This document shows positions 42,346 through 63,189 of a stretch of 64,000 bases of DNA, piece by piece. The stretch is from Carnegiea gigantea (Eukaryota > Streptophyta > Magnoliopsida > Caryophyllales > Cactaceae), in NCBI GenBank assembly GCA_029747015.1, contig JAKOGI010001260.1, positions 62,001 through 126,000 of the forward strand, given 5' to 3'. The position numbers were made by a program, and so were the translations under genes. Numbering within the stretch: position 1 is the stretch's first letter; each line of letters starts with the position of its first letter. The notes below the pieces were generated by a model that had not been told where the DNA came from, did not search any database, and was given only the letters and a program-made list of their open reading frames with translations.

Positions 42346-42759
42346 GACTCATGCGACTAACATTTCGTCTCTAACTTTCCTTTTTCTTTTTATCTATCCA
42401 GCCTCTATCCCATCTAATTTCCTTTCTCCTCCATAACTCTTTTTCACTCTCATCAATCATAATCAATTCCGTTATTATTATGATCATCTTAGCTGTTTCT
42501 TCACATCCTCTCTCACAAAAAGGATCCATTGAAGGCAGAATTCAGCAGTTACAAACTTTAGCCTAAAGACTGATGTCAAGGGCTATGGAATCGTCTTTAA
42601 ATAGCACTAGGCAAGTCAAGTAAAAGCATACCGAAGCCTAGGTCTCCTTTTTTTTTTTTTAATTTATTAACTTGATGCATGTTGGTGTTTCTTTTCCCTT
42701 ATAATAATCCATAGCGTTTTCAATAAGTAAATTATCTTATGTTATAACACTACTTATAA

Positions 42760-42761
<2 letters not shown>

Positions 42762-42822
<61 letters not shown>
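42762..42822. repeat. (AT)n microsatellite, about 30 units
   Basis: An uninterrupted AT run in the 3' flank of array copy A. The equivalent position in the other copies has only a short CTACATATATAAAG. Confidence 0.97.
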
Positions 42823-42825
<3 letters not shown>

Positions 42826-42959
42826 ACATATAGCTTTCCCAAATATCGTTTTCATTATTGGTTAAGCATTTCATACAAAAGTTCCACTTAATGTCAAAAG
42901 CTAGCACAACACACAAGGAGAAGAAACAAGCCTCAAACCCCACTCTGGCCTTGATACTT

Positions 42960-43650
42960 AAAACACATGGTTATTCTTAATGGCAACACGACTAATAACA
43001 GCTTGTTCAATCCCCTCTTTCAAGTGGTTTGTTTTTGTTCGTAGCGTCATAACTAATAAACTTGTTCAACAACTTTTCTCCAGCGGGCAAGGCTATATTT
43101 TTCTTCAAAGCATTGTAGTCGATGAACTTGTTCAGCAACGTTCTTCCAGTCGAAAAGGCTGTGCTTTTCTTCATAGCATCGTAACTGACGAACTTGCTCA
43201 AGAGCTTCGTGCCAGTAGGGAGGGCTCTATTTTTCTTCATTGTCATAACAGATGAACTCATTCAAGAGTATCCTTCAAGTAGAGAATGCTCTATTTTTCT
43301 TCAAAGCATTGTAACTAATGAACTTATTTAAGCGGTGCCTTCAAATGGAGAAGGCTCTATTGTTCTTCAAAGTAGCATAACTAATGAATTTGTTCAACGG
43401 GTGCCTTCCAATGGCTATGTTATTCTTCATAGCACCGTAACTGATGAACTTCAAGAGCTTCCTTCCAGAGGCTTTGTTTTTCTTCATGGTATCGTAACTA
43501 ATGAACTTGCCCAACAATTCCTTCAAGTGGCCCTATCATTACCGATAATATTTATTAATCACATTATGCGGGGCTCTACAAACTGTTTCCTTCATAGTAG
43601 CATCACTAATGAACTTGTTCCGAATATCATCACTAATATCGCCATGAAAG
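42960..43650 (-). pseudogene. array copy A: broken FxxYD-repeat gene
   Basis: The minus strand holds about nine degenerate repeat units recognisable as KFISYD, KFVSYD, KFIDYN and similar, but in at least three frames. Long fragments are 43007-43261 and 43341-43526. The first block (NKFISDATMKE, about 43625) joins directly to sequence that lies far upstream of the start codon in copies B-D (TTACTTTCATGGCGATATT). The signal peptide, start codon and TATA region are therefore missing, through a deletion of about 950 bp relative to copy B. One unit near its 3' end (KLLNKFISYDATNKN) is still in frame with the preceding unit, unlike in copies B-E. It is the oldest and most decayed member. Confidence 0.85.
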
Positions 43651-43659
43651 TAAGGGTTT

Positions 43660-45575
43660 TTAAATGGTAAAAATGGTTGTGATCCAATCATAATATGTCA
43701 ATGTAATATTAGTGCATTTTTTGTTTGTGAAATATAATTTCTTATATGATGAAATAGATGTGTGTTAATCAGACAATCAACTAGGAGGTCATGAAAGTAA
43801 AAGAGACAATAAATGTTACATGATTTTCTCTACCGTTTTAGGATTTAATACAATTTATTTTAATTGAACAAAGGTTAGATTACTAAAGGAAATTGTTAGA
43901 TTTCGTACCAAAGTAGCAAGTAATTGTAATTGAGGGCAACTTTTAGGTGCTCTATGATATTGTCCCATGTAAGGGCATTGCAAATACCAATCTTCAAATT
44001 CTTCTCCCGAGTAGGGACAAGTTTTTAGATGTTATCATGCCCAATGACACTTACCAAGGTCTGGGTAAGAAGCAAAGCCCACCAAGCTGTTTTTGTTAGC
44101 CTACCATTCAGGCATGAACACCTTTTCCTCGAGGGAGACCTGAGTCATATTATCCCACACCCTTAGATTCGAAATATTGCTTATTTTTCTTCAAACGCTA
44201 TGTAATATTCTACTCATCTATAATAGAGGAGATTTTCCCCATGTTTTATGAACACTATTCAATAGGCCCCCTTGGATAAACCACCCTTTTCCCTACCATC
44301 AATATCTCGCTTCTTTGAAGTTTCCAGCAGAAAATCTGCAAAACTCTTTTTTCTTGGAAAAAAAAAAACAAAAACCCTTGAAGAACTGTAATCGGCAGTT
44401 TTACATTACTGAGGCTAAGTGGGTTCTAAGAATGTAGTAAAGCCAATAATACATCAATATTCGTTATTTTTGTTCATTTTTTTCATGAATTCCTTTGACC
44501 TGCTGTGATTAATGCATGCTTGTGCACGCTCATGCGTGTCTTGAATTTAGGCGCCGCTACTTCATGGTACTTTGCGGGGAACAAACACTTTGCATACAAA
44601 GATGGTAAATGATGCTGTAGCTCAGAGTTGCACCTAGAAGAGAGTGTGGATTAGAGAGTCAATTTATAGTGAATGTAAGATTTTTACAAGCGTCTCTTGG
44701 TGGTCGCTGGGCACCTTCCTTAATGTCTTTCACGCAAAGGAGAGCTGCTGACTTGGTTTGGAAAGAACTTAGATATATGAGACAATTGGGATGTCATACA
44801 TGCCTAGATTTCCTAATTGGGAGACTTCGATCTGCATGACAGTGACAAAACCCTAATGGATCACTTTTCTTGTAAGATGTGAAAAGGAAAAGAAATTGCC
44901 CTATTCAAGGCAACTAAATCCTCTCTTTCGTTCAAGATATCCCACATTACTTAAGGCAACCAAAACATTGCATGCAACGATGGTAAATGATGCTGTAGCT
45001 CAGAGGTGCACCTAGAAGAGAGTGTGGGAGGGAGACTCGACTTACAGTGAAATATGAAATATGTGCCAGAAGTTATTGCCCACATCTGGTGGTTGCTAGG
45101 CAGCTTCGTTAAGGTCTTTCACACAAAGTGGAGGACATGGACTTGGTTTGGAAAGAACTCAGACAAATGAGATTATTGGGATGTCATATATGAGTAGATT
45201 TCCTAATTGGGGGACTTGGATCAGCACGACAATGACAAAACCCTAGTGAATCACTTTTCTTATAGGCAATTGGTTTAAGAATGGAACATCTCTTGATTCT
45301 GGTGTCATGGCTTTTGCCCAAGAAAATTCCCTTCTTGTATCTCGATCTGAAAGGGACAAGAAGTTGCCCTATCTCAAGCAAGCAAATCCTCTCTTTTGTG
45401 CAAGACAGCCCAGATATTATTGATCCTGTAACAGCTCTGTGGCAATTACCACTATGACTAACAAATTTTGCGGTAGAATCGAGAAACTTATAGTAACTTG
45501 ATGTTGGTAGATATTTAGTTTCTCTTATCAAAAATCTGTGTGATATTACGTTATAGAATAACACCAATATATGCT
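43660..45575. other. array spacer A-B
   Basis: This is homologous to the spacers between the other copies but more diverged, and it lacks the RTE insertion. It contains a direct duplication of about 370 bp: GATGGTAAATGATGCTGTAGCTCAGAG.TGCACC at about 44600 and again at about 44970, with similar sequence following. The block near 45190-45420 reads as a partly open, conserved frame (SLDSGVMAFAQE.SLLGSRSERDKK in the best copy) that I do not recognise. Confidence 0.7.
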
Positions 45576-45826
45576 AACTACAAATATAAAGATCTATAGT
45601 TTTCCCAGATATCATTTTCATTATTGGTGAAGCGTTTCATATAAAAGTTCCGCTCAATGTCAAAAGCTAGCGCAGCGTACAAGGAGAAGAAATAAGCTAC
45701 ATACCCCACTCTGACCTTGATACTTAATCCACATTGTTCTTCTCAACCGCATCACCACTAATAAAACTGGCTCAGTTGCTCTATACCTTATTTCAAGTGG
45801 CGTTATTTTTCTTTATAGCGTCATAA

Positions 45827-46747
45827 CTAATAAGTTTGATCACCAGGTTTCTGCACGTACAAGGCTCTATTTTTCTCCAAAGCATCGTAATTGATGAACT
45901 TTTTCAACAACTTTCTTCCAGTGGGCAAGGCTCTGTTTTTCTTCATCGCATCATAACTGACGAACTTGTTCATGAGCTTCCTACCAGTGGGGAGGGCCCT
46001 ATTTTTCTTCATTGCATCGTAACTGATGAATTCGTTCATGAGCTTTCTTCCAGTGGGCAAGGCTCTATTTTTCTTCAAAGCATCGTAACCGATGAACTTG
46101 TTCAAGAGGTGCCTTCCAGTGGCGAAGGCTCTATTTTCCTTCAAAGTGTCATAACTGATGAACTTGTTCAACAGGTGCCTTCCAATGGCTCTGTTATTCT
46201 TCATAGCATCGTAACTGACGAACTTGTTCATGAGCTTCCTACCGGTGGGGAGGGCTTTATTTTTCTTCATTGCATCGTAACTGATGAATTCGTTCATGAG
46301 CTTCCTTCCAGTGGGCAAGGCTCTATTTTTCTTCAAAGCGTCGTAACCGATGAACTTATTCAAGAGGTGCCTTCCAATGGCGAAGGCTCTATTTTCCTTC
46401 AAAGTGTCATAACCGATGAACTTGTTCAACAAGTGCCTTTCAATGGCTCTGTCATTCTTTACGGCATCGTAACTAATGAACTTGTTTGAGAGCTTCCTTC
46501 CGGTGGCTCTGCTTTTCTCCATGGCGTCGTAGCTAATGAACTTGCCCAACAAATTCCTGCTAGCGGCCCCAGCATCACTGATAATATTAATCTCTTTATG
46601 AGGGCTGTGCAAATTGTTTTCCTTCATAGCAGCATCACTAATGAACTTTTTCCCACTGGTCTCTGCAGCTTTTGCGTCGAGGAAGGAGGAAACAAAGAGT
46701 AAACCAATTAGCACAGCTACAACTTTCTCTCTCCAATTGCGCGCCAT
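45827..46747 (-). CDS. array copy B: secreted FxxYD-repeat peptide precursor
   Basis: Single-exon frame of 306 residues. Residues 1-28 form a signal peptide: basic start, hydrophobic core VVAVLIGLLFVSSFL, likely cut after DAKA. A degenerate first block (KKFISDAAMKEN) follows, then eleven units of 19-22 residues from about 70 to the end. Each has F-[IV]-[SGN]-Y-D followed by a basic linker such as AMKKNRALPTGRK. The tetrads are FISY five times, FIGY three, FVSY two and FINY one. Nine of eleven units have Asn two residues before the Phe, and all have Asp after the Tyr. Units 4-7 and 8-11 are near copies. There are no cysteines and no known domain. I do not recognise the family. The layout fits a secretory precursor cut into many small peptides; a structural repeat protein is the alternative. 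TATA-like TATAAATA lies 160 bp upstream. Confidence 0.8.
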   Translation of the reverse strand: MARNWREKVVAVLIGLLFVSSFLDAKAAETSGKKFISDAAMKENNLHSPHKEINIISDAGAASRNLLGKFISYDAMEKSRATGRKLSNKFISYDAVKNDRAIERHLLNKFIGYDTLKENRAFAIGRHLLNKFIGYDALKKNRALPTGRKLMNEFISYDAMKKNKALPTGRKLMNKFVSYDAMKNNRAIGRHLLNKFISYDTLKENRAFATGRHLLNKFIGYDALKKNRALPTGRKLMNEFISYDAMKKNRALPTGRKLMNKFVSYDAMKKNRALPTGRKLLKKFINYDALEKNRALYVQKPGDQTY

Positions 46748-46906
46748 GCTAGCTAACTTATATTATAGGAACCTTTAATTAGGGAGGGGGTTCAAAGGAA
46801 CAAAAAAAAAAAAAAAGAGGAAAAATAGTCTTTTTGTTCCTTTTTGCCCCCTAATTTGGAGATCAAAAGAGTGAAGCGCTTGGTTGGAAATGTCCAGGAT
46901 GGAGAA

Positions 46907-46914
46907 TATTTATA
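46907..46914 (-). promoter_or_regulatory. TATA box of array copy B
   Basis: TATAAATA on the minus strand, about 160 bp before the start codon. It is kept in copies B, C, D and E within a conserved stretch. Confidence 0.55.
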
Positions 46915-47849
46915 TTGTTCGGATCATGTACAATTATGGCACATAGAGAAGAATTTAGGGTAATACATCTTTGTCGCCGAAATACCTTGGTTTCAAGCAA
47001 CAAAAATAGACAATGTGAGTTTTCCATGGGAAACCATTAGGTAGATAAATAAGGATTGTCTAATTTAAGAGAAACCGTTCTTGATTGTTAGCATACATTT
47101 CGACCATATTGGCAAGATTTTTTCTTTCTCGCTCTTCGATTGTATTTGTTCGGCATTGGGCCCAAGTGACCAGCACAAATTTTGTAACTGCACTTCAGTC
47201 CTCCTCAATAAGCAGCTATTAGTTACTTTAACAATCCTAATTCTTTTCACCAGTTATGAAATAAAGTATAGCCGGGAAAACGACTCCATGAGTGCATATG
47301 AATTTAATTCTTGATATCATGTGTTCCGCTCTACAAAATAAATTAGTCAAGCGGTAGTAGAAGGAGTAGTAGCAACGACGGCAGCATCAATAGTAGTTAT
47401 CAAATCATAGTGATAGTAATAATAATCAGAATTAAGTTCAAAAAAGAAAATAGATTAGTGTTTAAAAACTTTATTAGAAGGGATGAACAAGTGAACTTAA
47501 TATATATGTATATATGATCAAACATTTCAAATACATTGACATAATGAATATCAAATTTATCGCAGCATGGTGTACCCTGAACAGGTCGGAAATATCACCA
47601 TGAAAGTAAGGGTATTTTAATGATGAAAATGATTGTGATCCAATCATAATATGCCAATATAGTATTAGTACACTCTTTGTTTGTGTAAATATAATTTCTC
47701 GTATTATGAGATATATGTGTATTAATCGAATAACTGACTAGGAGTCGTGAAAAGAAAGGAGACGATAAATGTTATATGATTCTCTACACTGTATTAGGAT
47801 TTAATAAAGCTTATTTCAATAGGACAAAGGTTAGATTACGAAGAACATA
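46915..47849. other. upstream region of copy B up to RTE insertion
   Basis: This is the conserved 5' flank of the array genes. It contains short AGTAGTAG/AATAATAAT runs near 47350-47440 and a TATATATGTATATATG stretch near 47500. No gene is seen. It is nearly identical to 53331-54265. Confidence 0.7.
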
Positions 47850-50670
47850 CAACAACAACAACAACTCCCAGTGTGGGTTCCGCTTTTGCGGGGTCTGGGG
47901 AGATCCAGCTGTGGGCAACCTTACCCCTACCGGTATTCCTACCCATAGAGAGGTTGATTCCTTAAGACCCACAAAACTTTTTTTTTTTTTTTTGAAAAAG
48001 GTTTATAGAGAAAACGATTGCAAACCAAAAACCCAGGAGGAGAAAATGGGCCGGAGAGCAAAATAAACAAGGAGCAGAGACATATCTTAACCAACCAGGG
48101 GCGCTAGATGCCGTCACATCCCAGAAAAACACGACCTGCAAACAAGTACACCAAAACCCTACCCGCCCCACCCCACCGACGCTACTACCACCTACGGGGC
48201 CGGTCCCCTGCAATCAGAGACCTTAATCCTATCCCGCCACAACCTCCTATCCTGAGCTATGTCCTCCGTCAGACCGGCAACTCTCAGGTCCTCTCTAACC
48301 ACTTCCTCTAAGCTCTTCTTCGGTCTACCCCTCCCTCTCTTTCCACCGGGGGGACGATCATCTCGCACCTCCGCATTGGGGCGGCCACACTTCTCCTCTT
48401 TACGTGGACGAACCATTTGAGCCTCGATTCCCTCATCTTCTCCTCTATGGGGGCCACTTTAGCTAAGCTCCTGGTTACTCCATTCCTAATTCTGTCCAAT
48501 CTCGTAAAACCACACATCCACCTGATCATTCTCATCTCAGCTACCATCAACCTTTGGGCCTGCGTCTTCTTTAGAGGCCAACACTCCGATCCATAGAGAA
48601 CAGCCGGTCTAACTACCATCCGCTAGACTTTGCCTTTCAATCCTAGGGGCACTCTCTTATCACACAGTACCGCTGACGCTGACTTCCACTTTTGCCAATC
48701 TACTCTTATCCGCTGGCCAATATCCTCGTTAATGTCCCCATTTTGCTGGATGATCGAGCCCAGATACTTAAATTTAGCGACCTTTGGTATCACCCTCCCA
48801 TCCAGTGTGATTTCTCCCCCCTCTTCTATCCTACCACTGAAATAGCAATGGAGGTATTCCGTTTTTGATCTACTTAACCGAAAACCCCTAGCTTCCAGCA
48901 TATGCCTCCAACTCTCCAACCTGTCATTCACCCCCTGCCTGGTCACATCGATAAGAATGATGTCATCTGCAAATAACATGCACCAAGGCACCTCGTCCTG
49001 GATTCCTCTAGTGAGTTCATCCAAAACTAAAGTGAAAAGAAACGGGCTTAGGGCGGAGCCCTGATGTAGGCCCATATTAACAGCAAAGTCGTTAGAGACC
49101 CCTCCCGGTGTCCTAACACGCGTCTGCCCTCCCTTGTACATATCCTTGATTACACGGATGTACGCGGACGACACCCTTTTCTCTTCCAAAAACCTCCACA
49201 ATACCTCCCTTGGGACTCGATCATACGCTTTCTCTAGGTCAATGAACACCATATGAATATCCACCTTTCTATCCCTGAACAAGCCCATGAGCCCTCTGAG
49301 GAGGTGGATCGCCGAGGTGGTCGACCTGCCTGGTATGAAACCAAATTGGTTCTCTGAAATATCTACAACCTCTCGTAACCTTCTCTCAATCACCCTCTCC
49401 CATAGCTTCATACTGTGACTGAGCAGCTTGATGCCCCTAAAGTTATTACAAACTTGAATATCCCCTTTGTTTTTGTACAGTGGGATGACTGTGCTGGCCC
49501 TCAACAGTGGGTTGACTGTGCTGGCCCTCCACTCTCTGGGCATCTTGGCGGTCCTGTAAATAATATTAAACAGTTCCGTGAGCCACTCTAGCCCTACCTC
49601 CCCCATAAACTTCCAAACTTCCACTGGTATCTAGTCTGGGCCCACTGCCTTCCCATTCACCATCTTCTTCAAGGCCTCCCTAATCTCCTCCTTTGCTATA
49701 TGGTCGCCCGCTCGCTGATCGCTACACTCTCCGCCCGTACTACAGTCGTCTCGCACTCCTTCCCCATTTAGAAGTTTAGCAAAGAACCTTTGCCATCTCT
49801 CTCTAATATCATCATTCTCAGTCAGCACCTTACCTTCTTCGTCCTTGATGCATCTTACCACTCCCAAATCCCTAGTCTTCCTTTCCCTCGCCCTAGCCAG
49901 TTTGAAAACCTCCTTCTCCCCTTCCTTCGTCCCCAATCTATGGTACAGTCTATCAGAAGCCTGACTCTTTGCTATTGCCACCGCCTTTCTGGCTACCTTC
50001 TTGGCCGCCTTGTATCCAATCTTCTTTTGCTCCCTCTCTTCCTCTGAACTGCTGCTCATGAGCTCTGCGAAAGCCTCTTTTTTAGCCTTGACTTTCTCCT
50101 TTACCTCTCCGTTCCACCACCAGGCGCCCTCCATCCTGTTCCCGCCTCCCCTGGAAAGACTTAGGGTTTCCTTAGCCAACCTTCGGATGCAATCCGCCAC
50201 AGTCTCCTACATTGAATCGGCGTCTTCTGCCCTCCTCCAAGCTCCCTTCTCGGCTATTCTTTCTGCCATTAACCCCGCCTTCTCCTTCGTGAGGGTTCAC
50301 CACTTAATTCTGGGTTCTCCGACTCTCCTTTTCGTCCTCCTAGGATACTTGAACTCTGCATCTAAAACCAGCAACCTGTGTTGAGTTCCCAGAAACTCGC
50401 TAGGAATCACTTTGCAGTCCTTACACGATCTCCTATTTTTCTTTCTCGTGAGGAAGTAGTCAATCTGGGTCTTGCAAAAGCTGCTCTTGAAGGTCACTAG
50501 GTGATCCTCCTTCTTCTTGAAAAAAGAGTTGGCCACCAACAAATCAAAGGCCACCGTAAAGTCCAACACAGAGGCCCCTCCCGCGTTTCTCTCTCCGAAA
50601 CCGAAACCCCCGTGGACCCCATTATAACCCGCTGCCGCCGCGCCGATATGGCCGTTAAAGTCTCCTCCTA
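47850..50670 (-). mobile_element. RTE-type LINE, 5'-truncated, copy 1
   Basis: Minus-strand order from the 5' end: the end of an APE-type endonuclease (GGDFNGHIG, then NSFFKKKEDHLVTF, QIDYFLTRK; 50297-50680). A linker follows (49631-50200). The reverse transcriptase (48623-49624) has YRGIK-like [46 protein letters not shown] and the catalytic FADDI. The C-terminal tail (48192-48619) has SRLKWFVHVKRR and GRGRPKKS. The 3' end is a (TTG)n tail on the minus strand at 47850-47865. In-frame stops (for example after VGPD and after LKGKV) make it inactive. A 27-bp in-frame duplication ([18 protein letters not shown]) lies before the RT fingers. It belongs to the plant RTE clade. The insertion is absent from the D-E spacer. 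Confidence 0.93.
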
Positions 50671-51990
50671 AATTACGGACGAAAGTGCGAAGTAATTGCA
50701 ATTAGGGACATCATCTATGTCCCTATGACATTGTCCCCTACGAGGGCATTGCAACCACCAATCATTAAATTCTTCCCTCAAGTTGACACAGGTTTTTAAA
50801 TGTTGTCATGCTCAGTGACAGTCACTGAGATATGGGAAATAAGCAAAGCCCACCTAACATTTTTTGTTCGGCTACTATTTGGCAGCAATGCCTTTTCCTC
50901 GTGGATACCTCGAGTTATGTTATTCCTTGCCTACTAGATTCAAGGTATTGCTTAGTTTTCTTTGAACTCTATGCGATATTCTACCACCCCTACTAGTGTA
51001 ATAAAGGAGCTTTTCCTCATATTTGAGGCACACTATTTAACTGTCCCCTCTTGGAGAAAATACCCTTCTCTCTAGCATCAATATCTCCCTTCTTTCAAGT
51101 TTCTAGGGGGCACTCTCTAAAAATCTTTTCTTTTCCCTGGAAAGAAAAAATCTTTAAAGAAGTGTAATTCATCATTTTTCATAACTGAGGTTAAGTAAGC
51201 TCCTAGAATTCAGTGAAATTGACAATATCGTAAAATTCGTTACTTTTGTTCATTTTAATCATGAATTCCTTGGACCTGCTGTGGCTAATGTGTGCTTGTG
51301 CATGCTCTTGTGTGTCTTGAACAACATACGTACGCGCTACTATTTTAGGGTACTTTAATTTAAGGGGGGGAAAACATTGCATTCAATGGTGGCAAATGAT
51401 GTTGTAGTTCAGAGGTGCACCTAGAAGAGAGGGTGGCATGGAGACTTAATTTACAGTGAAATATAAAATATGTGGGGAAGATTTCGCAAGCATCTCTTGG
51501 TGGTTGCTAGGCAGCTTCTTTGAGCTCTTTCACACAAAGTGGGGGACGTGGACTTGGTTTGAAAAGAACTCAAACAATTGAGATTATTGGGATGTCACAC
51601 ATGAGTAGATTTCCTAATTGGGGGAATTCGATCAGCACGGCAATGACAAAACCGTAGTGGATCACTTTTCTTATAGGCAATTGGTTTAAGAATGAAACGT
51701 CTCTTGATGCTGGTGTCATGGCCTTTGCCCAAGAAAATTCCCTCCTTGGATCTCGATCTGAAAGGGACAAAAAATTACCCTATCTCAAGCAACCAAATCC
51801 TCTCTTTTGTGCAAGACAGCCCAGATATTATTGATCCTGTAACAGCTCTGTGGCAATTACCACTATGACTTACGAATTTCGAGGTAGAATAGAGAAACTT
51901 ATAGTAACTTGATGTCGGTAGATATTTAGTTTCTCATATCAAAAATCTGTGTGATATTACGTTATAGAATAATCAAACACCAATATATGC
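50671..51990. other. array spacer B-C
   Basis: Spacer homologous to 43660-45575 and 60720-62200 and nearly identical to 57087-58406. It holds the conserved but partly closed frame near 51600-51790 (AFAQENSLLGSRSERDKK) and no recognisable gene. Confidence 0.7.
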
Positions 51991-52242
51991 TAACTACATA
52001 TATAAAGATCTATAGTTTTCCCAGATATCATTTTCATTATTGGTGAAGCGTTTCATATAAAAGTTCCGCTCAATGTCAAAAGCTAGCGCAGCGTACAAGG
52101 AGAAGAAATAAGCTACATACCCCACTCTGACCTTGATACTTAATCCACATTGTTCTTCTCAACCGCATCACCACTAATAAAACTTGCTCAGTTGCTCTAT
52201 ACCTTATTTCAAGTGGCGTTATTTTTCTTTATAGCGTCATAA

Positions 52243-53163
52243 CTAATAAGTTTGATCACCAGGTTTCTGCACGTACAAGGCTCTATTTTTCTCCAAAGCG
52301 TCGTAATTGATGAACTTTTTCAACAACTTTCTTCCAGTGGGCAAGGCTCTGTTTTTCTTCATCGCATCATAACTGACGAACTTGTTCATGAGCTTCCTAC
52401 CAGTGGGGAGGGCCCTATTTTTCTTCATTGCATCGTAACTGATGAATTCGTTCATGAGCTTTCTTCCAGTGGGCAAGGCTCTATTTTTCTTCAAAGCATC
52501 GTAACCGATGAACTTGTTCAAGAGGTGCCTTCCAGTGGCGAAGGCTCTATTTTCCTTCAAAGTGTCATAACTGATGAACTTGTTCAACAGGTGCCTTCCA
52601 ATGGCTCTGTTATTCTTCATAGCATCGTAACTGACGAACTTGTTCATGAGCTTCCTACCGGTGGGGAGGGCTTTATTTTTCTTCATTGCATCGTAACTGA
52701 TGAATTCGTTCATGAGCTTCCTTCCAGTGGGCAAGACTCTATTTTTCTTCAAAGCGTCGTAACCGATGAACTTGTTCAAGAGGTGCCTTCCAATGGCGAA
52801 GGCTCTATTTTCCTTCAAAGTGTCATAACCGATGAACTTGTTCAACAAGTGCCTTTCAATGGCTCTGTCATTCTTTACGGCATCGTAACTAATGAACTTG
52901 TTTGAGAGCTTCCTTCCGGTGGCTCTGCTTTTCTCCATGGCGTCGTAGCTAATGAACTTGCCCAACAAATTCCTGCTAGCGGCCCCAGCATCACTGATAA
53001 TATTAATCTCTTTATGAGGGCTGTGCAAATTGTTTTCCTTCATAGCAGCATCACTAATGAACTTTTTCCCACTGGTCTCTGCAGCTTTTGCGTCGAGGAA
53101 GGAGGAAACAAAGAGTAAACCAATTAGCACAGCTACAACTTTCTCTCTCCAATTGCGCGCCAT
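52243..53163 (-). CDS. array copy C: secreted FxxYD-repeat peptide precursor
   Basis: 306 residues, differing from copy B in the protein by a single residue that I can see (KKNRVLPTG for KKNRALPTG in unit 5). Signal peptide, eleven repeats and the KPGDQTY tail are the same. Its start lies exactly 6,416 bp from that of copy B. The 3' flank has a TCAAA insertion shared with copy D but not B, while the coding part is B-like. It therefore looks like the hybrid product of an unequal crossover. Function is unknown, as for copy B. Confidence 0.8.
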   Translation of the reverse strand: MARNWREKVVAVLIGLLFVSSFLDAKAAETSGKKFISDAAMKENNLHSPHKEINIISDAGAASRNLLGKFISYDAMEKSRATGRKLSNKFISYDAVKNDRAIERHLLNKFIGYDTLKENRAFAIGRHLLNKFIGYDALKKNRVLPTGRKLMNEFISYDAMKKNKALPTGRKLMNKFVSYDAMKNNRAIGRHLLNKFISYDTLKENRAFATGRHLLNKFIGYDALKKNRALPTGRKLMNEFISYDAMKKNRALPTGRKLMNKFVSYDAMKKNRALPTGRKLLKKFINYDALEKNRALYVQKPGDQTY

Positions 53164-53322
53164 GCTAGCTAACTTATATTATAGGAACCTTTAATTAGGG
53201 AGGGGGTTCAAAGGAACAAAAAAAAAAAAAAAGAGGAAAAATAGTCTTTTTGTTCCTTTTTGCCCCCTAATTTGGAGATCAAAAGAGTGAAGCGCTTGGT
53301 TGGAAATGTCCAGGATGGAGAA

Positions 53323-53330
53323 TATTTATA
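53323..53330 (-). promoter_or_regulatory. TATA box of array copy C
   Basis: TATAAATA at the same distance from the start codon as in copy B. Confidence 0.55.
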
Positions 53331-54265
53331 TTGTTCGGATCATGTACAATTATGGCACATAGAGAAGAATTTAGGGTAATACATCTTTGTCGCCGAAATA
53401 CCTTGGTTTCAAGCAACAAAAATAGACAATGTGAGTTTTCCATGGGAAACCATTAGGTAGATAAATAAGGATTGTCTAATTTAAGAGAAACCGTTCTTGA
53501 TTGTTAGCATACATTTCGACCATATTGGCAAGATTTTTTCTTTCTCGCTCTTCGATTGTATTTGTTCGGCATTGGGCCCAAGTGACCAGCACAAATTTTG
53601 TAACTGCACTTCAGTCCTCCTCAATAAGCAGCTATTAGTTACTTTAACAATCCTAATTCTTTTCACCAGTTATGAAATAAAGTATAGCCGGGAAAACGAC
53701 TCCATGAGTGCATATGAATTTAATTCTTGATATCATGTGTTCCGCTCTACAAAATAAATTAGTCAAGCGGTAGTAGAAGGAGTAGTGGCAACAACGGCAG
53801 CATCAATAGTAGTTATCAAATCATAGTGATAGTAATAATAATCAGAATTAAGTTCAAAAAAGAAAATAGATTAGTGTTTAAAAACTTTATTAGAAGGGAT
53901 GAACAAGTGAACTTAATATATATGTATATATGATCAAACATTTCAAATACATTGACATAATGAATATCAAATTTATCGCAGCATGGTGTACCCTGAACAG
54001 GTCGGAAATATCACCATGAAAGTAAGGGTATTTTAATGATGAAAATGATTGTGATCCAATCATAATATGCCAATATAGTATTAGTACACTCTTTGTTTGT
54101 GTAAATATAATTTCTCGTATTATGAGATATATGTGTATTAATCGAATAACTGACTAGGAGTCGTGAAAAGAAAGGAGACGATAAATGTTATATGATTCTC
54201 TACACTGTATTAGGATTTAATAAAGCTTATTTCAATAGGACAAAGGTTAGATTACGAAGAACATA
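53331..54265. other. upstream region of copy C up to RTE insertion
   Basis: Near-identical duplicate of 46915-47849; only isolated substitutions were noticed (for example near 53788-53796). No gene is seen. Confidence 0.7.
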
Positions 54266-57086
54266 CAACAACAACAACAACTCCCAGTGTGGGTTCCGCT
54301 TTTGCGGGGTCTGGGGAGATCCAGCTGTGGGCAACCTTACCCCTACCGGTATTCCTACCCATAGAGAGGTTGATTCCTTAAGACCCACAAAACTTTTTTT
54401 TTTTTTTTTGAAAAAGGTTTATAGAGAAAACGATTGCAAACCAAAAACCCAGGAGGAGAAAATGGGCCGGAGAGCAAAATAAACAAGGAGCAGAGACATA
54501 TCTTAACCAACCAGGGGCGCTAGATGCCGTCACATCCCAGAAAAACACGACCTGCAAACAAGTACACCAAAACCCTACCCGCCCCACCCCACCGACGCTA
54601 CTACCACCTACGGGGCCGGTCCCCTGCAATCAGAGACCTTAATCCTATCCCGCCACAACCTCCTATCCTGAGCTATGTCCTCCGTCAGACCGGCAACTCT
54701 CAGGTCCTCTCTAACCACTTCCTCTAAGCTCTTCTTCGGTCTACCCCTCCCTCTCTTTCCACCGGGGGGACGATCATCTCGCACCTCCGCATTGGGGCGG
54801 CCACACTTCTCCTCTTTACGTGGACGAACCATTTGAGCCTCGATTCCCTCATCTTCTCCTCTATGGGGGCCACTTTAGCTAAGCTCCTGGTTACTCCATT
54901 CCTAATTCTGTCCAATCTCGTAAAACCACACATCCACCTGATCATTCTCATCTCAGCTACCATCAACCTTTGGGCCTGCGTCTTCTTTAGAGGCCAACAC
55001 TCCGATCCATAGAGAACAGCCGGTCTAACTACCATCCGCTAGACTTTGCCTTTCAATCCTAGGGGCACTCTCTTATCACACAGTACCGCTGACGCTGACT
55101 TCCACTTTTGCCAATCTACTCTTATCCGCTGGCCAATATCCTCGTTAATGTCCCCATTTTGCTGGATGATCGAGCCCAGATACTTAAATTTAGCGACCTT
55201 TGGTATCACCCTCCCATCCAGTGTGATTTCTCCCCCTTCTTCTATCCTACCACTGAAACAGCAATGGAGGTATTCCGTTTTTGATCTACTTAACCGAAAA
55301 CCTCTAGCTTTCAGCGTATGCCTCCAACTCTCCAACCTGTCATTCACCCCCTGCCTGGTCACATCGATAAGAATGATGTCATCTGCAAATAACATGCACC
55401 AAGGCACCTCGTCCTGGATTCCTCTAGTGAGTTCATCCAAAACTAAAGTGAAAAGAAACGGGCTTAGGGCGGAGCCCTGATGTAGGCCCATATTAACAGC
55501 AAAGTCGTTAGAGACCCCTCCCGGTGTCCTAACACGCGTCTGCCCTCCCTTGTACATATCCTTGATTACACGGATGTACGCGGACGACACCCTTTTCTCT
55601 TCCAAAAACCTCCACAATACCTCCCTTGGGACTCGATCATACGCTTTCTCTAGGTCAATGAACACCATATGAATATCCACCTTTCTATCCCTGAACAAGC
55701 CCATGAGCCCTCTGAGGAGGTGGATCGCCGAGGTGGTCGACCTGCCTGGTATGAAACCAAATTGGTTCTCTGAAATATCTACAACCTCTCGTAACCTTCT
55801 CTCAATCACCCTCTCCCATAGCTTCATACTGTGACTGAGCAGCTTGATGCCCCTAAAGTTATTACAAACTTGAATATCCCCTTTGTTTTTGTACAGTGGG
55901 ATGACTGTGCTGGCCCTCAACAGTGGGTTGACTGTGCTGGCCCTCCACTCTCTGGGCATCTTGGCGGTCCTGTAAATAATATTAAACAGTTCCGTGAGCC
56001 ACTCTAGCCCTACCTCCCCCATAAACTTCCAAACTTCCACTGGTATCTAGTCTGGGCCCACTGCCTTCCCATTCACCATCTTCTTCAAGGCCTCCCTAAT
56101 CTCCTCCTTTGCTATATGGTCGCCCGCTCGCTGATCGCTACACTCTCCGCCCGTACTACAGTCGTCTCGCACTCCTTCCCCATTTAGAAGTTTAGCAAAG
56201 AACCTTTGCCATCTCTCTCTAATATCATCATTCTCAGTCAGCACCTTACCTTCTTCGTCCTTGATGCATCTTACCACTCCCAAATCCCTAGTCTTCCTTT
56301 CCCTCGCCCTAGCCAGTTTGAAAACCTCCTTCTCCCCTTCCTTCGTCCCCAATCTATGGTACAGTCTATCAGAAGCCTGACTCTTTGCTATTGCCACCGC
56401 CTTTCTGGCTACCTTCTTGGCCGCCTTGTATCCAATCTTCTTTTGCTCCCTCTCTTCCTCTGAACTGCTGCTCATGAGCTCTGCGAAAGCCTCTTTTTTA
56501 GCCTTGACTTTCTCCTTTACCTCTCCGTTCCACCACCAGGCGCCCTCCATCCTGTTCCCGCCTCCCCTGGAAAGACTTAGGGTTTCCTTAGCCAACCTTC
56601 GGATGCAATCCGCCACAGTCTCCTACATTGAATCGGCGTCTTCTGCCCTCCTCCAAGCTCCCTTCTCGGCTATTCTTTCTGCCATTAACCCCGCCTTCTC
56701 CTTCGTGAGGGTTCACCACTTAATTCTGGGTTCTCCGACTCTCCTTTTCGTCCTCCTAGGATACTTGAACTCTGCATCTAAAACCAGCAACCTGTGTTGA
56801 GTTCCCAGAAACTCGCTAGGAATCACTTTGCAGTCCTTACACGATCTCCTATTTTTCTTCCTCGTGAGGAAGTAGTCAATCTGGGTCTTGCAAAAGCTGC
56901 TCTTGAAGGTCACTAGGTGATCCTCCTTCTTCTTGAAAAAAGAGTTGGCCACCAACAAATCAAAGGCCACCGTAAAGTCCAACACAGAGGCCCCTCCCGC
57001 GTTTCTCTCTCCGAAACCGAAACCCCCGTGGACCCCATTATAACCCGCTGCCGCCGCGCCGATATGGCCGTTAAAGTCTCCTCCTA
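54266..57086 (-). mobile_element. RTE-type LINE, 5'-truncated, copy 2
   Basis: Duplicate of 47850-50670, shifted by 6,416 bp. It has the same truncation point, the same stops and the same 27-bp internal duplication. The RT frame (55039-56040) differs at only a few residues ([16 protein letters not shown] versus [16 protein letters not shown]). It arose by segmental duplication, not by a second retrotransposition. Confidence 0.93.
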
Positions 57087-58406
57087 AATTACGGACGAAA
57101 GTGCGAAGTAATTGCAATTAGGGACATCATCTATGTCCCTATGACATTGTCCCCTACGAGGGCATTGCAACCACCAATCATTAAATTCTTCCCTCAAGTT
57201 GACACAGGTTTTTAAATGTTGTCATGCTCAGTGACAGTCACTGAGATATGGGAAATAAGCAAAGCCCACCTAACATTTTTTGTTCGGCTACTATTTGGCA
57301 GCAATGCCTTTTCCTCGTGGATACCTCGAGTTATGTTATTCCTTGCCTACTAGATTCAAGGTATTGCTTAGTTTTCTTTGAACTCTATGCGATATTCTAC
57401 CACCCCTACTAGTGTAATAAAGGAGCTTTTCCTCATATTTGAGGCACACTATTTAACTGTCCCCTCTTGGAGAAAATACCCTTCTCTCTAGCATCAATAT
57501 CTCCCTTCTTTCAAGTTTCTAGGGGGCACTCTCTAAAAATCTTTTCTTTTCCCTGGAAAGAAAAAATCTTTAAAGAAGTGTAATTCATCATTTTTCATAA
57601 CTGAGGTTAAGTAAGCTCCTAGAATTCAGTGAAATTGACAATATCGTAAAATTCGTTACTTTTGTTCATTTTAATCATGAATTCCTTGGACCTGCTGTGG
57701 CTAATGTGTGCTTGTGCATGCTCTTGTGTGTCTTGAACAACATACGTACGCGCTACTATTTTAGGGTACTTTAATTTAAGGGGGGGAAAACATTGCATGC
57801 AATGGTGGCAAATGGTGTTGTAGTTCAGAGGTGCACCTAGAAGAGAGGGTGGCATGGAGACTTAATTTACAGTGAAATATAAAATATGTGGGGAAGATTT
57901 CACAAGCATCTCTTGGTGGTTGCTAGGCAGCTTCTTTGAGCTCTTTCACACAAAGTGGGGGACGTGGACTTGGTTTGAAAAGAACTCAAACAATTGAGAT
58001 TATTGGGATGTCACACATGAGTAGATTTCCTAATTGGGGGACTTCGATCAGCACGGCAATGACAAAACCGTAGTGGATCACTTTTCTTATAGGCAATTGG
58101 TTTAAGAATGAAACGTCTCTTGATGCTGGTGTCATGGCCTTTGCCCAAGAAAATTCCCTCCTTGGATCTCGATCTGAAAGGGACAAAAAATTACCCTATC
58201 TCAAGCAACCAAATCCTCTCTTTTGTGCAAGACAGCCCAGATATTATTGATCCTGTAACAGCTCTGTGGCAATTACCACTATGACTTACGAATTTCGAGG
58301 TAGAATAGAGAAACTTATAGTAACTTGATGTCGGTAGATATTTAGTTTCTCATATCAAAAATCTGTGTGATATTACGTTATAGAATAATCAAACACCAAT
58401 ATATGC
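57087..58406. other. array spacer C-D
   Basis: Near-identical to the B-C spacer (50671-51990). No recognisable gene. Confidence 0.7.
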
Positions 58407-58658
58407 TAACTACATATATAAAGATCTATAGTTTTCCCAGATATCATTTTCATTATTGGTGAAGCGTTTCATATAAAAGTTCCGCTCAATGTCAAAAGCT
58501 AGCGCAACGTACAAGGAGAAGAAATAAGCTATATACCCCACTCTGACCTTGATACTTAATCCACATTGTTCTTCTCAACCGCATCACCACTAATAAAACT
58601 TGCTCAGTTGCTCTATGCCTTATTTCAAGTGGCGTTATTTTTCTTTATAGCGTCATAA

Positions 58659-59582
58659 CTAATAAGTTTGATCACCAGGTTTCTGCACGTACAAGGCTCT
58701 ATTTTTCTCCAAAGCATCGTAATTGATGAACTTTTTCAACAACTTTCTTCCAGTGGGCAAGGCTCTGTTTTTCTTCATCGCATCATAACTGACGAACTTG
58801 TTCATGAGCTTCCTACCAGTGGGGAGGGCCCTATTTTTCTTCATTGCATCGTAACTGATGAATTCGTTCATGAGCTTTCTTCCAGTGGGCAAGGCTCTAT
58901 TTTTCTTCAAAGCATCGTAACCGATGAACTTGTTCAAGAGGTGCCTTCCAGTGGCGAAGGCTCTATTTTCCTTCAAAGTGTCATAACTGATGAACTTGTT
59001 CAACAGGTGCCTTCCAATGGCTCTGTTATTCTTCATAGCATCGTGACTGACGAACTTGTTCATGAGCTTCCTACCAGTGGGGAGGGCTTTATTTTTCTTC
59101 ATTGCATCGTAACTGATGAATTCGTTCATGAGCTTCCTTCCAGTGGGCAAGGCTCTATTTTTCTTCAAAGCGTCATAACCGATGAACTTGTTCAAGAGGT
59201 GCCTTCCAATGGCGAAGGTTCTATTTTCCTTCAAAGTGTCATAACCGATGAACTTGTTCAACAAGTGCCTTTCGATGGCTCTGTCATTCTTTACGGCATC
59301 GTAACTAATGAACTTGTTTGAGAGCTTCCTTCCGGTGGCTCTGCTTTTCTCCATGGCGTCGTAGCTAATGAACTTGCCCAACAAATTCCTGCTAGCGGCC
59401 CCAGCATCACTGATAATGTTAATCTCTTTATGAAGGCTGTGCAAATTGTTTTCCTTCATAGCAGCATCACTAATGAACTTTTTCCCACTGGTCTCTGCAG
59501 CTTCTGCGTCGACGAAGGAGGAGGAAACAAAGTGTAAACCAATTAGCACAGCTACAACTTTCTCTCTCCAATCGCGCGCCAT
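58659..59582 (-). CDS. array copy D: secreted FxxYD-repeat peptide precursor
   Basis: 307 residues: the same signal peptide layout (LHFVSSSFVDAEA, one residue longer), eleven repeats and the same C-terminal tail. It has several private changes. One is in unit 7, where FVSY is FVSH, so one repeat has lost its tyrosine. Coding and upstream DNA are a little more diverged than between B and C, so D predates their split. It has a TATA-like box and no RTE insertion upstream. Confidence 0.8.
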   Translation of the reverse strand: MARDWREKVVAVLIGLHFVSSSFVDAEAAETSGKKFISDAAMKENNLHSLHKEINIISDAGAASRNLLGKFISYDAMEKSRATGRKLSNKFISYDAVKNDRAIERHLLNKFIGYDTLKENRTFAIGRHLLNKFIGYDALKKNRALPTGRKLMNEFISYDAMKKNKALPTGRKLMNKFVSHDAMKNNRAIGRHLLNKFISYDTLKENRAFATGRHLLNKFIGYDALKKNRALPTGRKLMNEFISYDAMKKNRALPTGRKLMNKFVSYDAMKKNRALPTGRKLLKKFINYDALEKNRALYVQKPGDQTY

Positions 59583-59741
59583 GCTAGCTAACTTATATTA
59601 TAGGAACCTTTAATTAGGGAGGGGGTTCAAAGGAACCAAAAAAAAAAAATAGAGGAAAAATAGTCTTTTTGTTCCTTTTTGCCCCCTAATTTGGAGATTA
59701 AAAGAGTGAAACGCTTGGCTTGAAATGTCCAGGATGGAGAA

Positions 59742-59749
59742 TATTTATA
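59742..59749 (-). promoter_or_regulatory. TATA box of array copy D
   Basis: TATAAATA, about 160 bp before the start codon, as in copies B and C. Confidence 0.55.
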
Positions 59750-62200
59750 TTGTTCGGATCATGCACAATTATGGCATGTAGAGAAGAATTTAGGGTAATA
59801 CGTCTTTGTCGCCGAAATAGCTTGCTTTCAAGCAACAAAAATAGACAATGTGAGCTTTTCATGGGAAACATTCTGTTTCCTTTGGGATATCGAAAACCAT
59901 TAGGTAGATACATAAGGATTGTCTAATTTAAGAGAAACCCGTTCTTAATTGTTAGCATATATTTCGACAATATTGGGAAGATTTTTTCTTTCTCGCCTTT
60001 CGATTGTATTTGTTTGGCGTTGGGCGTAAGTGACCAGCACAAATTTTGCAATTGCACTTTAGTCCTCCTCAATAAGCAGCTATTAGTTACTTTAACAGTC
60101 CTAATTCTTTTCACTAGTTATGAAATAAAGTATAATCGGAAAAATGGCTCCGTGAGTGCATATTAATTTAATTCTTGGTAACATGTGTTCCGCTCAACAA
60201 AATAAATTAGTCAAGCGGTAGTAGAAGCAGTAGTAGCAATGATGGCAGCATCAATAGTAGTTATCAAATCATAATGATAGTAATAATAATCAGAATTAAG
60301 TTCAAAAAAGAAAATAGATTAGTGTTTAAAAACTTTATTAGAAGGACTGAACAAGTGAACTTCATATATATGTATATATGTTCAACCATTTTAAATACAT
60401 TGACATAATGAATATAGAATTTATCACAGCATGATGTGCCCTGGACAGGTGAGAAATATCACCATGAAAGTAAGGGTATTTTAATGGTAAAAACGATTGC
60501 GATCCAATCATAATATGCCAATATAACATTGGTAAACTCTTTGTTTGTGTAAATGTAATTTTTTGTATTATGAGATATATGTGTATTAATTGAATAATTG
60601 ACTAGGAGGTCATGAAAGAAAAAGATAATAAATGTTATATGATTCTCTTCACTATTTTAGGATTTAATAAAACTTACTTCAATTAGACAAAGGTTAGATT
60701 ACGAAGAACATATATCGTTAAATTTCGGAAGAAAGTGGGAAGTAATTGCAATTAAGGACATCGTGTAGGTCCCTTTGACATTGTCCCCTACAAGAGCATT
60801 GCAATCTCCAATCTACAAATTCTTCTCTCAAGTTGGCACAGGTTTTTAAATGTTGTCATGCTCAATGACAGTCACTAAGATTTGGGTGGCAAGCAAAGCC
60901 CACCTAATATTTTTTGTTCGGCTACTATTTAGGCAGCAACGCCTTTCCCTCATGGATAACCCAAGTTATATTATTCCTTACCTACTAGATTCAAGGTATT
61001 GCTTAGTTTTCTTTAAACTCTATACGATATTCTACTACTCCTGCTAGTGTAATAAGGGAGAATTTCCGCTTATTTGATGCACACCATTTAATTGTCCCCT
61101 CTTGGAGAAACTACCCTTCTCTCTATCATCAATATCTCCCTTCTTTCAAGTTTCTAGGGGCACTTTCTAAAAATAGTTTCTTTTTCCTGGAAAGTAAAAA
61201 TCTTTAAAGAAGTGTAATATATCATTTTGCATAACTGAGGTTCAGTTAGCTCCTAGAATTTAGTGAAATTGACAATACAGTAATATTCATTACTTTTGTT
61301 CATTTTAATCATGAATTCCTTGGACTTGCTGTGATTAATGTGTGCTTGTGGATGCTCTTGTGTGTCTTAAATAGCTGAAGTACGCGCTACACTTTCAAGG
61401 AACTTTAATTTGAGGGGGAAAAAACCTTGCATGCAACGGCGACAAATGAAGTTCTAGCTAAGAGGTGCACCTAGAAGAGAGTGTGGCATGGAGACTCGAT
61501 CTAAAGTGAAATATAAAATATGTGACAGAAGATTTTGTAAGCATCTCTTGATGTTGCTAGGTAGCTTCTTTAAGGTCTTTACACAAAGTAAGGGGCATGG
61601 ACTTGGTTTGGAAAGAACTCAGACAAATGAGATTGTTGGGATGTCATACATGAGTAGATTTCCTAATTGGGGGACTTCGATCAACACGACAATGACAAAA
61701 CCCTTGTGGATCAGTTTTCTTATAGGTAATTGGTTTAAGAATGAAGCGTCTCTTGATTCTGGTGTCATGGCCTTTGCCCAAGAAGATTCCCTCCTTGGAT
61801 CTCGATCTGAAAGAGATAAGAAATTGCCCTATATCAAGCAACCAAATCCTCTCTTTTGTACAAGATAGCCCACATATTATTGATCATATGACAGCTCTGG
61901 AGTAATTACCCCTATGACTTATGAATTTTAAGGTAGAATCGAGAAACTTATAGTAACTTGATGTTGGTAGATATTTCTTTTCCCTTATCAAAAATCTATG
62001 TGATATTATGTTATAAAAGAATCAAACACGAAATATATGCTAACTACATATATAAAGACATAGTTTTCCCAAATATCATTTTCATTATTGGTGTCCACTC
62101 AATGTCAAAAGCTAGCGCAACGTACAAGGAGAAGAAATAAGCTATATACCCACTCTAACCTTGTTATTTAACGCAGATTGTTCTTCTCAACCATGTCACA
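59750..62200. other. upstream of copy D and spacer D-E (no RTE)
   Basis: The 5' flank of copy D runs straight into spacer near 60715-60740 (AAGAACATATATCGTTAAATT), showing the empty site of the RTE insertion. It carries about 28 bp (TCTGTTTCCTTTGGGATATC region, 59872-59899) that copies B and C lack. The spacer frame at 61650-61868 (SLDSGVMAFAQEDSLLGSRS) is the most open version of the unrecognised conserved block. Confidence 0.75.
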
Positions 62201-62262
62201 ACTAATAAAATTTGCTCAATACCATATTTTAAGTGGTGTTATTTTTCTTTATGGCGTTATAA

Positions 62263-62919
62263 CTAATAAGTTTGATCACCAGGTTTCTGCATGCGTAAGA
62301 CTCTATTTTTCTCCAAAGCGTCGTAATTGATGAACTTGTTCAATAACTTTCTTCCAGTAGGCGAGGCTCTGTTTTTCTTCATCGCATCGTAACTGACGAA
62401 CTTGTTCATGTGCTTCCCACCAGTGGGGAGGGGTCTATTTTTCTTCATTGCATTGTAACTGATGAATTCGTTCATGAGCTTCCTTCCAGTAGGCAAGGCT
62501 CTATTTTTCTTTAAAGCGTCATAACCAATGAATTTGTTTAGGAGGTGCCTTCCAGTGGCAAAGGCTCTATTTTCCTTCAATGTGTCATAGCTGATGAACT
62601 TGTTCAACAAGTGCTTTCCAATGGCTCTGTCATTCTTCACAGCATCGTAACTAATGAACTTGTTCAAGAGCTTCCTTCTGTTGGCTCTGCTTTTCTCCAT
62701 GGTATCGTAGCTAATGAACTTGCCCAACAAATTCCTTCTAGCGGCCCTAGAATCACCGATGATATTAATCTCTTTATGCAGGCTCTGCAAATTGTTTTCC
62801 TTCATAGCAGCTTCACTAATGAACTTTTTCCCACTGACATCATAGTCATTGTTAGTTTCAGTCTCTGCAACTTTTGCACTAAGTAAGGAGGAGGAAACAA
62901 AGAGCAAATCAATTAGCAT
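62263..62919 (-). CDS. array copy E: shorter FxxYD-repeat precursor, shifted start
   Basis: The ancestral start (62950-62952) is followed by a TAG at codon 5 (62938-62940), where B-D have a Trp codon. An ATG at 62917-62919, where B has Val12, opens a 218-residue frame. It still begins with a hydrophobic stretch (MLIDLLFVSSSLLSAKVAE) that could act as a signal peptide. There are only seven repeats; the second set of four seen in B-D is absent. Tetrads are FISY four times, FIGY, FVSY and FINY. One unit has YN for YD, and Gly-Lys replaces Gly-Arg-Lys in one linker. It ends in the same QKPGDQTY tail. It may be functional or early in decay. Confidence 0.65.
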   Translation of the reverse strand: MLIDLLFVSSSLLSAKVAETETNNDYDVSGKKFISEAAMKENNLQSLHKEINIIGDSRAARRNLLGKFISYDTMEKSRANRRKLLNKFISYDAVKNDRAIGKHLLNKFISYDTLKENRAFATGRHLLNKFIGYDALKKNRALPTGRKLMNEFISYNAMKKNRPLPTGGKHMNKFVSYDAMKKNRASPTGRKLLNKFINYDALEKNRVLRMQKPGDQTY

Positions 62920-63105
62920 AACTACAACTTTCTCTCTCTAATTGCGCGCCATGCTAGCTAACTTATATTATAGGAACCTTTGACGAGGAAGGGGGTTCCA
63001 GGGAACAAAAAGGAAAATAGAGGAAAAATTTTTTGTTCCTTTTTGGCCCCTAATTTGGAGATCAAAAGAGTGAAACGCTTAGTTTGAAATGTCTAGGATG
63101 GAGAA

Positions 63106-63113
63106 TATTTATA
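63106..63113 (-). promoter_or_regulatory. TATA box of array copy E
   Basis: TATAAATA in the conserved upstream block. About 75 bp further out the homology to the other copies stops at an LTR-like boundary. Confidence 0.5.
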
Positions 63114-63189
63114 TTGTTGGGATCATGTACAAATTATGGCACATAAAGGAGAATTCACGGTAATACGTTTTTATCATCGAAATACCTTG

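Follow-up and report, generated by a model that had tools for sequence, protein, structure and literature searches.

A tandem array of cysteine-free, multi-module RALF-related genes in the saguaro cactus Carnegiea gigantea

The gene array and its relatives

The window analysed here is the whole 64,000-nucleotide stretch between positions 62,001 and 126,000 (forward strand) of contig JAKOGI010001260.1 from the Carnegiea gigantea assembly GCA_029747015.1 (G000:C1260:62001-126000), the genome searched comprising 1.13 Gb in 5575 contigs. It contains five paralogous genes, all on the minus strand between positions 43022 and 62952, whose open copies encode repetitive proteins built of 7-11 units that resemble the beginning of mature RALF hormones; they are referred to below as poly-RALF, or simply poly, genes. 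The individual copies are as follows:

43022..43652, minus strand: copy A, a broken paralogue with stops and a frameshift and without a recognised signal peptide
45827..46747, minus strand: copy B, an intact 306-amino-acid precursor with 11 units, a signal-peptide-like start, one degenerate first module and no cysteine
52243..53163, minus strand: copy C, an intact 306-amino-acid precursor with 11 units
58659..59582, minus strand: copy D, an intact 307-amino-acid precursor with 11 units
62263..62919, minus strand: copy E, an open frame of 218 amino acids with 7 units

A previous sequence-only reading of this DNA had described an array of five genes, one of them broken; its location, strand and count, as well as the broken state of copy A, have stood, but copy E proved not to be plainly intact. 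The original ATG of the latter (window position 62952) leads to a TAG at codon 5, and the present open frame begins at a later Met, which preserves the hydrophobic core of the signal peptide and has lost its basic start. The same reading had given 7-11 units per frame and no cysteines, in agreement with the 11 units counted in each of copies B, C and D and the seven in copy E; cysteine is absent from copies B, C, D and E as well as from L028 (see below), so that the four cysteines, i.e. the two disulfides, of a RALF are missing. A single exon, as proposed for these genes, would be consistent with the open frames.

Every unit of copies B, C, D and E opens with R-x-L-x, the site preceding all 11 units of copy B, and the internal units measure 20 or 22 residues. 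In the typical layout, the R-x-L-x site is followed by F-[IV]-x-Y-D-A-[ML]-K-K-N, which corresponds to the start of a mature RALF. Among the 30 units of copies B and E and of L028, the core is represented by 28 R, 29 L (written with five different Leu codons), 29 F, 26 I or V and 27 Y, counts that are favoured by the unit search pattern, since it requires R/K/G, L/H and F/V. The residue between R and L is K, H or N, and the L is followed by L, M or S, two further residues and then F-[IV]-[S/G/N/T]-Y.

Four further copies, L025-L028, were found in contig C920. The last of them (L028:3775-4686) has an open frame of 304 codons starting at its ATG, the frame used in the comparisons covering 302 of the 304 (from the codon after the ATG to one codon before the end); L025 is shortened to 136 codons, and L026 and L027 are broken. 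The C920 copies contain, mixed with the FISYD unit, another and diverged type of unit (GRHLLNRFSSYFKEKN) that may represent a distinct peptide. Concerning predicted proteins, 5.8 billion of them were searched. The searches with poly proteins, scoring the best approximately 8,000 word-sharing candidates, yielded at least five relatives (P0001-P0005), including the saguaro protein P0002, whose sequence is identical to contig C920 in three segments, 31, 49 and 94 residues long; in view of this cap the family may be distributed more widely. The search with the two-cysteine RALFs (see below) yielded three more (P0006-P0008). None of the window's intact proteins was present among those best approximately 8,000 candidates, and they thus seem to be missing from the annotated proteomes.

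Similarity to the RALF family

The units had previously been taken to contain no known domain and to belong to no described family, a view that does not hold, for they are RALF-like, combining a site-1 protease (S1P)-type site with the YISY-like start of RALF hormones. The Pfam RALF profile (PF05498; curated cut-off 22 bits, profile length 65) scores above its cut-off in all four open copies (72.4, 74.1, 69.4 and 58.6 bits), no other family having passed its own cut-off in the Pfam scan of these four, and also in relatives with fewer or diverged units—L028 (40 bits), P0001 (29 bits), P0003 (26 bits) and P0002 (24.9 bits). The best stretches extend from profile positions 9-12 to positions 31-39 of 65; the basic C-terminal half of RALF, which binds LRX and pectin, is unmatched, the profile stretch ending at position 31 in copies B, C and D and at position 39 in copy E. 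In the PDB (177,635 distinct sequences, E up to 10), both copy B and a single 23-residue unit matched two sequences each, both of them RALF4 (KFIGYDALKKNR / RYIGYDALKKNN), these matches being weak, with the best E of 0.32 for copy B and 0.05 for the single unit.

It should be pointed out that several observations weigh against the RALF assignment. Repetition inflates the Pfam scores, and the reversed copy B together with five shuffled versions, in which the unit columns were permuted identically in every unit, reached up to 46 bits for unrelated families: PF11663 was matched by the reversed sequence with 36.7 bits and PF14615 by one of the shuffled ones with 46.1 bits, both above the cut-off. 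The Pfam E-value was therefore not accepted at face value. RALF itself appeared in none of the six controls (the reversed sequence at E up to 10, the five shuffles at E up to 0.01). Furthermore, no Pfam family was matched by one unit taken on its own; a six-frame search of the genome for RALF gave 17 places among the best candidates scored, none of them on the contig of the window (C1260) or on C920; and in the PDB a profile of six poly proteins ranked RALF4 (E 0.67) below an unrelated receptor (E 0.31). Since the Pfam score is inflated by the repeats, the case for RALF rests on other evidence, namely the weak PDB matches and the less repetitive relatives mentioned above and, most importantly, the related genes given below. 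A structural protein of a known family was considered as well and rejected, none being found above a Pfam cut-off or below E 0.3 in the PDB.

Common descent with two-cysteine RALF genes

Contig C463 harbours, at no fewer than five places (L030-L033 and L038 in the six-frame RALF search), single-unit RALFs in which the last cysteine pair is the only one left. Four of these RALFs are arranged in tandem with a spacing of approximately 7.7 kb, and L030 is frameshifted before its mature part. The signal peptide, the pro-region and the GRRLLNSYIGYGAIKEGN module of the C463 RALFs can be aligned with the beginning of the poly genes, the hydrophobic start of the poly proteins coinciding with the RALF signal peptides in this alignment. 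In a comparison of seven proteins, R463b was 42% identical to the L028 frame over 62 residues (60.5 bits, E 5e-16) and 34% identical to copy B over 58 residues (32 bits, E 4e-6), while R463a scored 55.8 bits with L028.

The relatedness extends beyond the coding part. The DNA upstream of the start codon in the two-cysteine RALF genes is 64-72% identical to that of copies B, D and E and L028 over 196-421 bp, this promoter/leader match reaching at best 98 bits, with E from 4e-10 to 1e-22 in what was a small comparison. The stretch contains the following element:

46907..46914, minus strand: TATAAATA box of copy B, located 167 bases upstream of its ATG, within the promoter/leader stretch common to the two-cysteine RALFs

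This TATA box has the same position in copies C and D and is found at -161 from the original ATG in copy E; the alignment of the R463b and copy D promoters takes it in.

That signal peptide, pro-region, first module and promoter are common to the poly genes and the two-cysteine RALFs demonstrates, at the level of sequence, the descent of both from one RALF gene. The two-cysteine RALFs look like an intermediate, and the simplest order of events would be a loss of cysteines from four through two to none, accompanied by amplification of the module. Because the four cysteines and the C-terminal features of RALF are absent, the poly genes are best described as encoding RALF-derived precursors and not RALFs in the strict sense.

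Duplication history and selection

The array has been shaped by duplication at two levels, between genes and within them, as represented by the following features:

44962..59872, strand not assigned: recent tandem segmental duplication with a period of 6416 bp (44962-53454 versus 51371-59872), carrying copies B, C and D
48623..50701, minus strand: long interspersed nuclear element (LINE)-like element that contains a reverse transcriptase and lies within the segmental duplication; a second, near-identical copy lies at 55039-57117
46184..46441, minus strand: units 3-6 of copy B, the first copy of a four-unit block (258 bp)
45920..46183, minus strand: units 7-10 of copy B, the second copy of the four-unit block

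The recent duplication proposed previously is borne out, the two parts of the 6416-bp tandem segment being 98.7% identical over 8506 columns (BLASTN), and this event can explain why copies B, C and D are near-identical; the sequence-only reading had taken the high copy number, the homogenised repeats and the recent duplication as a hint of selection for dosage. The first LINE-like element (48623-50701) contains the reverse transcriptase domain PF00078. Inside the genes, the four-unit block is doubled in copies B, C and D with a 258-bp period (units 3-6 corresponding to units 7-10) and is single in copy E.

The repeats had also been described as homogenised, which the comparison of copies B and E contradicts. 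The best DNA partners of units E1 to E7 are, in order, B1, B2, B3/7, B4/8, B5/9, B6/10 and B11, these positional pairs sharing 88-95% identity versus 65-88% for the remaining B-E pairs. The units thus retain their positional identity, and gene conversion homogenising them was rejected, the unit positions being orthologous between the two copies. For the likeness of the units at the protein level, selection is a better explanation than a recent homogenisation.

Purifying selection between copies B and E is indeed supported. Their ratio of nonsynonymous to synonymous divergence (dN/dS) is 0.20 (dS 0.28, dN 0.058), a value partly reflecting the past owing to the damaged start of copy E. The codons with a single change between B and E comprise 24 synonymous and 22 nonsynonymous ones, versus 33-37 nonsynonymous expected (P 2e-6 for kappa 1 and 5e-4 for kappa 4). 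When units are compared with each other, the corresponding ratio (pN/pS) amounts to 0.11-0.21 at the five core positions (R, L, F, I, Y) and 0.40-0.56 at the other fourteen, in a set from which the four block-copy units of copy B and, among the twelve L028 units, five (of the FSSYFKEK-type or V-type) were omitted. Sets of five columns with pN at or below that of the core numbered 28 out of 11,628, which is not a clean P value, as the search pattern favours the core. On the opposite side, the signal is weaker between copy B and L028 (dN/dS 0.45, P from 0.001 to 0.09), and the pairs B-C (3 changes) and B-D (12 changes) differ too little for statistical power.

These data bear on the main sceptical rival, the drift of a dying family, according to which the genes would be a relic lineage of RALF pseudogenes whose functionless units were multiplied by slippage and segmental duplication. 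Decay is seen in copy A and in two or three of the four copies on C920—A, L026 and L027 being broken and L025 shortened—and the original start frame of copy E is interrupted by a stop, all of which would fit a relic, as would the copying of B, C and D together with a LINE. The B-E ratio of 0.20, the core motif kept with varied codons, the open frames of 304-307 codons in four copies (B, C, D and L028) and the kept position of the TATA box all argue in the other direction, and this explanation is considered quite unlikely.

Possible products of the poly-RALF genes

On balance, it is probable that the genes encode multicopy precursors that would be secreted and cut into several linear, LLG-binding peptides of 16-22 residues, the cysteine domain having been lost. 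A secreted multi-peptide precursor, as suggested by the sequence-only reading, is still the best description, although the cyclic or modified cores proposed with it (a 2-Da or water loss) find no support, the Pfam scans having shown no BURP domain. The signal peptide would direct the precursor to secretion and a site-1-type subtilase would then cleave it at R-x-L-x; the literature describes an RXLX form of the S1P site along with RRXL for RALF precursors (PMC10442051). Trimming would subsequently shorten the pieces to about NKFIGYDALKKNRALPTG. Cutting copy B in silico after each R-x-L-x, followed by trimming, gave ten peptides of 16-18 residues and one C-terminal peptide of 25 residues; the computed monoisotopic masses are 2005.111 for NKFIGYDALKKNRALPTG, 2054.025 for NEFISYDAMKKNRALPTG and 2533.431 for the untrimmed 22-mer NKFIGYDALKKNRALPTGRKLM.

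The freed units could bind the co-receptors LLG1/2/3, as may be deduced from the co-crystal structure of RALF23 residues 1-17 with LLG2 and FERONIA, in which the LLG groove accommodates the YISY region (PMC12034098). The length of the trimmed units is close to that of the crystallised fragment, which makes linear LLG ligands without a wall anchor the most likely product. RALF23(1-17) binds LLG2 and promotes the binding of FERONIA to LLG1 less efficiently than the full RALF23 (PMC12034098), and tight binding to LRX is due to the half of RALF that is folded by disulfides (PMC10442051). Peptides devoid of that LRX- and pectin-binding half would be soluble, wall-independent partial ligands that may compete with full RALFs for LLG and so tune CrRLK1L signalling, the many units raising the yield per transcript. 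We lean towards partial, competing ligands because the activity of RALF22 is impaired when its first and third cysteines are mutated (PMC12807370). The same result, which implies that cysteine-free peptides may not signal, also counts against the proposed role, as does the replacement of the first Tyr of YISY by Phe in 29 of the 30 units; the AlphaFold model of copy B (6 sequences) was uninformative, with a mean predicted local distance difference test score of 34.7.

The main functional rival assumes no cutting at all: the whole protein would be a poly-YISY scaffold, multivalent and cationic, that brings LLG-CrRLK1L receptors into clusters and binds pectin, in effect a built-in RALF-pectin condensate. 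It is suggested by the 11 receptor-type motifs carried in a basic chain (59 K+R and 25 D+E after residue 26 of copy B), by the absence of a confident fold prediction for copy B and by the finding that RALF1 clusters FERONIA-LLG1 via YISY, with charge driving the RALF-pectin condensates (PMC11240277). A scaffold would, however, have no need of the R (28/30) and L (29/30) of R-x-L-x, whose conservation is as strict as that of the receptor motif, and it is regarded as unlikely. A polyprotein of short cationic defence (antimicrobial) peptides, not acting as receptor ligands, would be compatible with a signal-peptide-like start that precedes many basic units of 16-22 residues and recalls the six-core IbAMP precursor of Impatiens (PMC11253845); yet the constrained positions are those of the RALF motif and not of a general amphipathic pattern (amphipathicity was not computed), and the IbAMP precursor is listed among cysteine-rich peptides (PMC11253845), whereas cysteines are absent here. 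A defence polyprotein is considered very improbable.

If the linear peptides are made, they would offer a natural test of the YISY half of RALF acting alone, either as an agonist or as a competitor, and a source of RALF-type peptides that do not fold. RALF performs two jobs, i.e. LLG-FERONIA signalling through its N-terminal YISY part and wall building via LRX and pectin through its cysteine-folded part; in RALF23, separate mutations of the YISY part and of the LRX-binding part have been used to test the two (PMC13373830). The poly-RALF family appears to keep just the signalling part, multiplied. Cacti may have evolved a second mode of RALF signalling, in which poly-YISY precursors release wall-independent, cysteine-free N-terminal peptides into the apoplast in large amounts, so that these capture LLG in bulk and split the receptor function from the wall function, a proposal made tentatively and regarded as less likely than not. 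Peptide production would also show that evolution can turn a cysteine-rich hormone into a linear, multi-copy one, with the layout of some CLE and CEP precursors.

Comparison with known peptide precursors

With the RALF family (PF05498, clades I-III; nearest solved relative RALF4) the poly proteins share the signal-peptide-like start, the pro-region, the R-x-L-x/RRXL site, the motif [YF]I[SG]Y-x-A-[LM]-[KR]-[KR]-N and common descent according to both protein and promoter homology; they differ in having neither cysteines nor the folded C-terminal half, in containing 7-11 modules instead of one and in the Phe substituting for the first Tyr. The two-cysteine single-unit RALFs (at least five places in contig C463, and P0006-P0008) have the same kind of signal peptide and a GRRLLNSYIGYGAIKEGN-type module, the C463 genes having also the promoter in common with the poly genes, but have a single module, behind which comes a short tail retaining no cysteines except the last pair. 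According to the survey of RALFs in 51 species, clade IV members mostly lack RRXL and YISY (PMC5258720), a loss that is the reverse of that in poly-RALF.

Concerning more than one RALF domain in a single annotated gene, the strawberry FanRALF15 and FanRALF4-1 (PMC7098601) are the nearest case, although they contain two tandem conserved RALF domains and not 7-11 cysteine-free modules limited to YISY. In the passages of open-licence PMC literature searched, a cysteine-free poly-YISY RALF was not found, and the known RALFs described there carry one domain, or two in these two strawberry genes. The multi-domain CLE, CEP and PIP precursors likewise deliver several similar signalling peptides from one secreted precursor (PMC9532867); they belong to peptide families unrelated to poly-RALF, for which secretion is deduced, and resemble it in the way of working only.

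The multi-core precursors of ribosomally synthesised and post-translationally modified peptides—burpitides, orbitides and cyclotides (PMC11253845)—also carry repeated cores, and a precursor of cyclic or cross-linked peptides of the burpitide or orbitide type would explain repeated short cores in a secreted-looking protein. The poly-RALF proteins show no sequence sign of cyclisation, their Pfam matches at E up to 10 include no BURP domain, and the homology to RALF explains the repeats; such a precursor was therefore rejected as extremely improbable.

Other features of the window

Outside the array, an open frame of 232 amino acids at positions 4422-5120 (minus strand) gave no Pfam match at E 0.001. 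An exon-like frame at 34982-35545 (plus strand) contains the C-terminal domain of Lon protease (PF05362, 200 bits), which makes it likely that the array has a Lon protease gene as its neighbour. Just before this Lon-like frame, at 34516-34800, the DNA carries a tandem duplication of 142 bp.

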